Source: a bacterium
Lineage (GTDB): Bacteria > NPL-UPA2 > JAGMAN01
Reading direction: 5' to 3'
Length of the DNA stretch: 12,071 nt
NCBI GenBank assembly: GCA_023130215.1
Contig: JAGMAN010000041.1
Span: forward strand, 1-12,071
Shown here: positions 5,717 to 6,966 of the stretch, one piece after another
Layout: every line of letters starts with the position of its first letter
Position numbering within the stretch: position 1 is the first letter of the stretch
Notes under the pieces: model-generated
Told to the model about the DNA's origin: nothing
The model's input: the letters and a program-made list of their open reading frames with translations, nothing else
Databases searched by the model: none
Position numbers and translations under genes: made by a program

Positions 5717-6133
5717 TCAACTTTTCTCATACAGGCTATCATTAATAAGTTTGTTTATCGTGTATTTAAGAATCTTTGCTCTCTCTACTGCTTTAATACT
5801 GACGAATTTAATACCTATGGCATTTATATCAGGCTTTACCATTTTTGACCAGACCAACTCGCATAGGGTGATAATAGGGTCTTCACTCAAAGGTAATGTG
5901 AAAGTAATCTGCAATTTATCGTCTCTCATTTTTAACTTATATAAGTCTTGAGGGGAAAGGGCTGAAATCTCGAGAAACATCCCGTCACCGCTTATATTTT
6001 TAGCTACTCCTCTGCCCTCCGTAATTATGCTTTTCTCATCCCCGGCAAACCTGAGTGCATAGTCAACGGTAACCCGAGTTGGTAAGTGACGATACTTTCT
6101 CCTCTCTCTTCCATTCCATTCTTCACACGCCAT
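5717..6133 (-). CDS. PilZ domain protein (c-di-GMP binding), intact copy
   Basis: The 138-residue single-domain protein has both c-di-GMP-binding motifs of PilZ: RxxxR at R11-R15 within RERRKYR, and NxSxxG at 46-51 (NISGDG), followed by strand MFLEI. The rest shows the beta-barrel pattern with CELVW and AIGIKFV strands and a C-terminal helix (about 110-135) beginning KAVERAKILKY. No signal peptide or membrane segment is seen, so it is cytosolic. Such stand-alone PilZ proteins are c-di-GMP effectors acting on motility, secretion or other partners. Start ATG 6133 has GAGAGAGGTG ending about six bases upstream. It follows a frameshifted paralog by 82 bases and closes the fis-like/PilZ group. No effector domain is attached, so the output is unknown. 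Confidence 0.92.
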   Translation of the reverse strand: MACEEWNGRERRKYRHLPTRVTVDYALRFAGDEKSIITEGRGVAKNISGDGMFLEISALSPQDLYKLKMRDDKLQITFTLPLSEDPIITLCELVWSKMVKPDINAIGIKFVSIKAVERAKILKYTINKLINDSLYEKS

Positions 6134-6215: not shown

Positions 6216-6705
6216 CTAGGTGAACCTTCCATTTGCCTGCCTGTCCTCAATCAAACCCTTCTCAATGAATTTACTGACTGCATATCTTGCGATCTTTCCT
6301 TTATCTCTCATGCTCATATTACGAAATTTCACACCCATGCCAACTGCTCCCAACTTCGTCGGCCTTAACCAGCTAATTTCACTCAAAGTTGTAACCTGTT
6401 CTTTGTCCACCGGTAATTTAAATTCAAGTTTTAACTCGCGTATGGTTCCGTTCTCTATTCTGCGCAGGTCGGAACGTACAAGATCTGAGGTTTGAAGATA
6501 CATACCATCGCCTATGTTCGTGCCGACGGCATTTCCTCGCCTATATTTCTTTCTCCCGGACACGGGGGTATAACCAATCAAGATAAGGCCCTGGCGATCG
6601 TGGATATTTCCTCCTTTCCGCTCCATTCCATCCCTCTTGCTGTTTTATTCTATTCCCATTGCTTACTATACTCCATAATCTCTCAATAATTTCTGCCGCT
6701 TTCAC
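6216..6705 (-). pseudogene. PilZ domain gene interrupted by a +1 frameshift (paralog of the downstream PilZ gene)
   Basis: From GTG 6705 one frame reads MKAAEIIERLW..., then GWNGAERRKYPRSPG, which matches EWNGRERRKYRHLP of the intact neighbour and supplies the PilZ RxxxR arginines. This frame soon stops. The rest of the domain (LILIGYTPVSG ... GDGMYLQ ... EISWL ... GMGVKF ... KFIEKGLI) lies in another frame that is open from 6626 to 6216. The two fit together near 6585-6591 if one extra base, probably a C in GGGCC, is removed. The downstream frame alone starts at ATG 6626 and lacks RxxxR. The second motif is also altered (NIGDG, one residue short of NxSxxG), so even the repaired protein may not bind c-di-GMP. 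It may be a decayed duplicate, a sequencing error or, less likely, programmed shifting. Confidence 0.78.
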
Positions 6706-6714
6706 CCTGTTAAC

Positions 6715-6966
6715 CTATGGCTTATTCTCTGCATATCTACTCTGGCTGAAAGTCTGGCTGAGACGGCTCTGACTAACCCCCAAAATCCTGGCTGCTCTCT
6801 TTCGATTGCCATTGACCTTCCTCAGGATTACAGAAATAAGCTCATTCTCAAAAATTCTCCTGGCTGTTTTCAAGCCAGCCTCTTTCTCCATCATCTTTTC
6901 CATGACCCCCTTGATGACCATTCTTAAATCTAATTGTGGGTCATTAGCCACCATAGTCCGTTGCAT
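6715..6966 (-). CDS. Stand-alone Fis-type HTH DNA-binding protein
   Basis: The C-terminal half (ARRIFENELISVILRKVNGNRKRAARILGVSQSRLSQ) is the Fis/NtrC-type helix-turn-helix, with the family's GN-xx-xAAxxLG signature. There is no receiver or AAA+ domain, so this resembles only the DNA-binding end of an NtrC-class regulator, or a Fis-like nucleoid protein. I chose ATG 6966 (83 residues) because GGGGGA stands six bases before it. The frame extends to ATG 7038, but that start would lie about seven bases from the predicted transcription start; ATG 6996 with AAGG is another option. The promoter just upstream is overlapped by a perfect inverted repeat, suggesting autoregulation. It is followed by the PilZ pair, so it may control or belong with c-di-GMP output. 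Targets are unknown. Confidence 0.82.
   Translation of the reverse strand: MQRTMVANDPQLDLRMVIKGVMEKMMEKEAGLKTARRIFENELISVILRKVNGNRKRAARILGVSQSRLSQTFSQSRYAENKP

Follow-up and report, generated by a model that had tools for sequence, protein, structure and literature searches.

A PilZ-domain gene split over two reading frames, probably a pseudogene, beside a complete PilZ paralogue in a draft NPL-UPA2 genome

The window, meaning the whole stretch of DNA analysed here, is 12,071 nucleotides of contig JAGMAN010000041.1 from an uncultured bacterium whose draft genome has 136 contigs, totals 1.01 Mb and is about 90% complete. The gene order is a histidine kinase (HK) and a small Fis-like gene, followed by a broken PilZ copy; the complete gene beside it, for a protein of the PilZ (cyclic-di-GMP receptor) type, is referred to below as the neighbour. 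The features of the two PilZ copies are as follows.

6216 to 6669, minus strand: PilZ gene remnant, the counterpart of a congener gene (G001:C116:641-1069), from nucleotide alignment and tree support of 96/94.
6590 to 6705, minus strand: part of the frame open from GTG 6705, with EGWNGAERRKYPRSP and the RxxxR arginines, from the sequence and a shuffle-tested peptide match.
6216 to 6626, minus strand: downstream-frame ORF (136 aa) that holds the bulk of the PilZ domain but no RxxxR.
About 6587 to 6594, minus strand: net extra base relative to the congener, the site of the frame change (CCAGGGCC), from alignment to the single-frame congener gene.
6658 to 6669, minus strand: ATAGTAAGCAAT opposite the congener start ATGGTAGGCAAT, start codon not conserved, from alignment.
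About 6501 to 6521, minus strand: second c-di-GMP motif, TNI-GDGM, with the Ser codon missing, from alignment.
5717 to 6133, minus strand: complete single-frame PilZ paralogue of 138 aa, PF07238 at 30.3 bits.

The initial annotation had described a PilZ copy divided between two frames by a single extra base, with RxxxR in the upstream one, and this arrangement was seen on the minus strand. The frame opening at GTG 6705 reads ...EGWNGAERRKYPRSPG... and has its stop codon at 6543-6541; the RxxxR-bearing EGWNGAERRKYPRSP lies in this upstream frame (...NRIKQQEGWNGAERRKYPRSPG...). The ORF at 6216-6626 is in a different frame from EGWNGAERRKYPRSP and encodes ...LILIGYTPVSGRKKYRRGNAVGTNIGDGMYLQTSDL... 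through to the end. The upstream-frame peptide was compared with the neighbour and with the congener protein, giving BLOSUM62 scores of 55 and 70, respectively, and none of 20,000 shuffles scored as high in either comparison. An orthologue in one frame is present in one of two congeners (142 aa, 62% identical to the downstream ORF; locus L047:641-1069, contig apparently JAUWHM010000079.1). Aligned to it, the window has one net extra base between the RxxxR frame and the rest, so that the frame is disrupted relative to an intact orthologue, as in a pseudogene, and the RKYPR that forms RxxxR does not share a frame with the barrel, unlike in a PilZ protein of the c-di-GMP type. Further orthologues were sought in a contig search of the genome collection, which matched only the known congener, and in nine genomes of the phylum, which otherwise held just more distant PilZ paralogues. 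No second copy of the broken gene was found in its own genome, and no exact match to the junction sequence was found in viral contigs. In a distant relative, a PilZ match close to the UDG gene (L025, G008:C19:7617-7901) has an internal TAA and is possibly another broken PilZ gene.

The remnant is about 76% identical to the congener gene at the nucleotide level across the downstream part and shows wear besides the extra base. The congener ATG aligns with ATA (6669-6667) in the remnant, which gives no support to GTG 6705 as the original start. The Shine-Dalgarno sequence of the congener (GAGGAGG) is weaker or not conserved. The second motif, defined as D/NxSxxG (PMC3131395), is NI-GDG in the remnant, where the congener reads NISGGG and the neighbour NISGDG; the earlier reading of NIGDG in place of NISGDG is correct, as the alignment shows one codon missing. 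The C-terminus also differs from that of the congener. Except for the extra base, nothing interrupts the downstream frame, with no stop over ~123 codons, and promoter and terminator scans around the remnant gave results at chance level.

The Pfam PilZ profile (PF07238, gathering cut-off 22.5 bits) was exceeded by the neighbour and by the congener gene. The downstream ORF alone scored 21.1 bits, just under the cut-off, and matched profile positions 49-100 only. Joining the two frames at an X gave 23.0 bits versus 41.0 bits for the congener, so the frame change accounts for the smaller part of the lost score. The remnant can be aligned to the congener's gene over the whole length; it differs from the family in having RxxxR out of frame and a D/NxSxxG motif without the serine. 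At the aligned RxxxR register, the neighbour has RKYRH, with RRKYR one residue earlier, versus RKYPR and REYPR, and this shift of the second arginine by one residue makes its own c-di-GMP binding uncertain as judged from the motif. Over the longer segment, the neighbour has ERRKYRHLP where relatives show ERR(K/E)YPRLP-like sequence.

A tree built from 18 PilZ sequences of the phylum pairs the broken copy with the congener gene (96/94) and groups the neighbour with both (99/98). The branch of the broken copy is longer than that of the congener gene (0.50 versus 0.22). The broken copy is about 32% identical to the neighbour versus 62% to the congener gene. The grouping indicates that the two PilZ copies in the window are old paralogues from a duplication older than the split of the two species, provided that the long-branched neighbour is correctly placed in the tree. 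The broken copy had been regarded as a tandem duplicate; a recent origin by duplication of the neighbour was rejected, as both the tree and the identities put the duplication before the species split.

Gene order around the locus differs in the congener. The kinase and the Fis-like gene are found elsewhere with no PilZ gene behind them, and the UDG-PolX-PurF block comes after other two-component genes, which indicates that the region was rearranged. The congener PilZ gene sits in a V-ATPase operon between subunits F and A (L047:290-3046), an unexpected place for a PilZ gene. The window's assembly yielded no V-ATPase A or B, the operon being lost or merely unassembled, and both are present in every other near relative tested. 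The Fis-like HTH_8 gene of the window (6715-6966, minus strand) has a raised dN/dS of 0.43 versus the congener and may also be under weak constraint; the congener's copy ends a few residues sooner, at TAG.

Differences between the remnant and the congener gene in the downstream part are almost even over codon positions 1, 2, and 3 (0.23, 0.22, and 0.28). Their dN/dS is about 0.53 (codon bootstrap 0.31-0.95), which is not assignable to one branch because the searched collections hold a single orthologue and the changes are unpolarised. For the neighbouring genes used as controls, dN/dS was 0.10 (UDG), 0.14 (PolX), 0.12 (PurF, part), and 0.17 (HK), and an independent PilZ orthologue pair (G000:C51 / G001:C92) gave 0.24 (0.15-0.39), with an interval that overlaps slightly with that of the remnant pair. 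Differences at codon positions 1+2 and 3 were 51:32 versus 404:527 in the pooled controls (Fisher p 0.002), and the same comparison against the PilZ control pair alone gave p 0.03. A dN/dS below 1 implies that the gene pair was constrained for some of the time, and a value near one half would be expected from one neutral and one constrained lineage. A relative-rate test for uneven change between remnant and congener was not significant (12 versus 8, chi2 0.8), and a three-taxon codon model did not separate the branches, given a saturated outgroup and just three sequences.

The segment at 6216-6669 is probably a pseudogene of PilZ type or else a gene in advanced decay. We infer that the window's lineage is where the changes took place, that the organism truly carries the extra base, and that function was lost. 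The paralogue pair would already have been present before the species and its congener split, and in the member at 6216-6669 the conserved start codon, the ribosome-binding site and a residue of the second c-di-GMP motif would since have disappeared, and the frame would have been broken between the RxxxR motif and the beta-barrel. It resembles ordinary bacterial frameshift pseudogenes in the single-base frame change, the unconserved start, the small in-frame deletion, the raised dN/dS, and the retained paralogue alongside, with no notable difference. As such, it would be an ordinary decaying old paralogue, a routine loss in a small draft genome.

The main competing explanation, with a modest chance of being right, is an assembly or read error, in which the organism lacks the extra base and has a PilZ gene that is diverged yet whole. 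Just one base within a short run of G is concerned, the draft is fragmented, and the rest of the downstream frame is without stops. Such an error leaves unexplained, however, the ATA for ATG, the lost motif codon, the altered C-terminus, the raised dN/dS, and the low PilZ score of the joined frames. The UDG, PolX, PurF, and HK genes beside the remnant have no internal stops and give one-piece matches to relatives, so the assembly is not generally error-ridden in this region. The preference of the initial annotation for real decay over a lone read error is favoured by the extra wear and the raised dN/dS.

It is improbable that translation of the ORF at 6216-6626 yields a functional PilZ-like product lacking RxxxR. 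AGAGGG, a passable Shine-Dalgarno sequence, stands a few bases before ATG 6626, and PilZ proteins lacking full motifs are known, XCC6012 being one with incomplete c-di-GMP motifs (PMC3131395). Against this, the first dozen residues of the ORF come from the old RxxxR segment read out of frame, the ORF looks weakly constrained, and the form is absent among the relatives found. Taken by itself, the downstream ORF would resemble the PilZ proteins with incomplete motifs in that it lacks RxxxR, but the remnant DNA keeps the RxxxR motif in another frame, and its absence from the ORF is therefore secondary to the frame break. That the ORF is now a separate PilZ-like protein, freed from c-di-GMP and acting with the complete neighbour, is a still more speculative proposal. 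Programmed +1 frameshifting that fuses both frames into a single product, although the frames overlap and both encode alignable PilZ sequence, was rejected as very improbable: the junction has no stop codon or recognised slippery codon, the RNA shows no structure there (z = +1.87, shuffles being more stable), and the congener gene reads in one frame and needs no shift.

If the gene has decayed, a c-di-GMP-responsive PilZ protein would not be expected from the remnant, and the neighbour at 5717-6133 may still serve. For annotation, the finding is a caution: the downstream ORF would pass as a PilZ protein without c-di-GMP motifs, with the motif one frame over.
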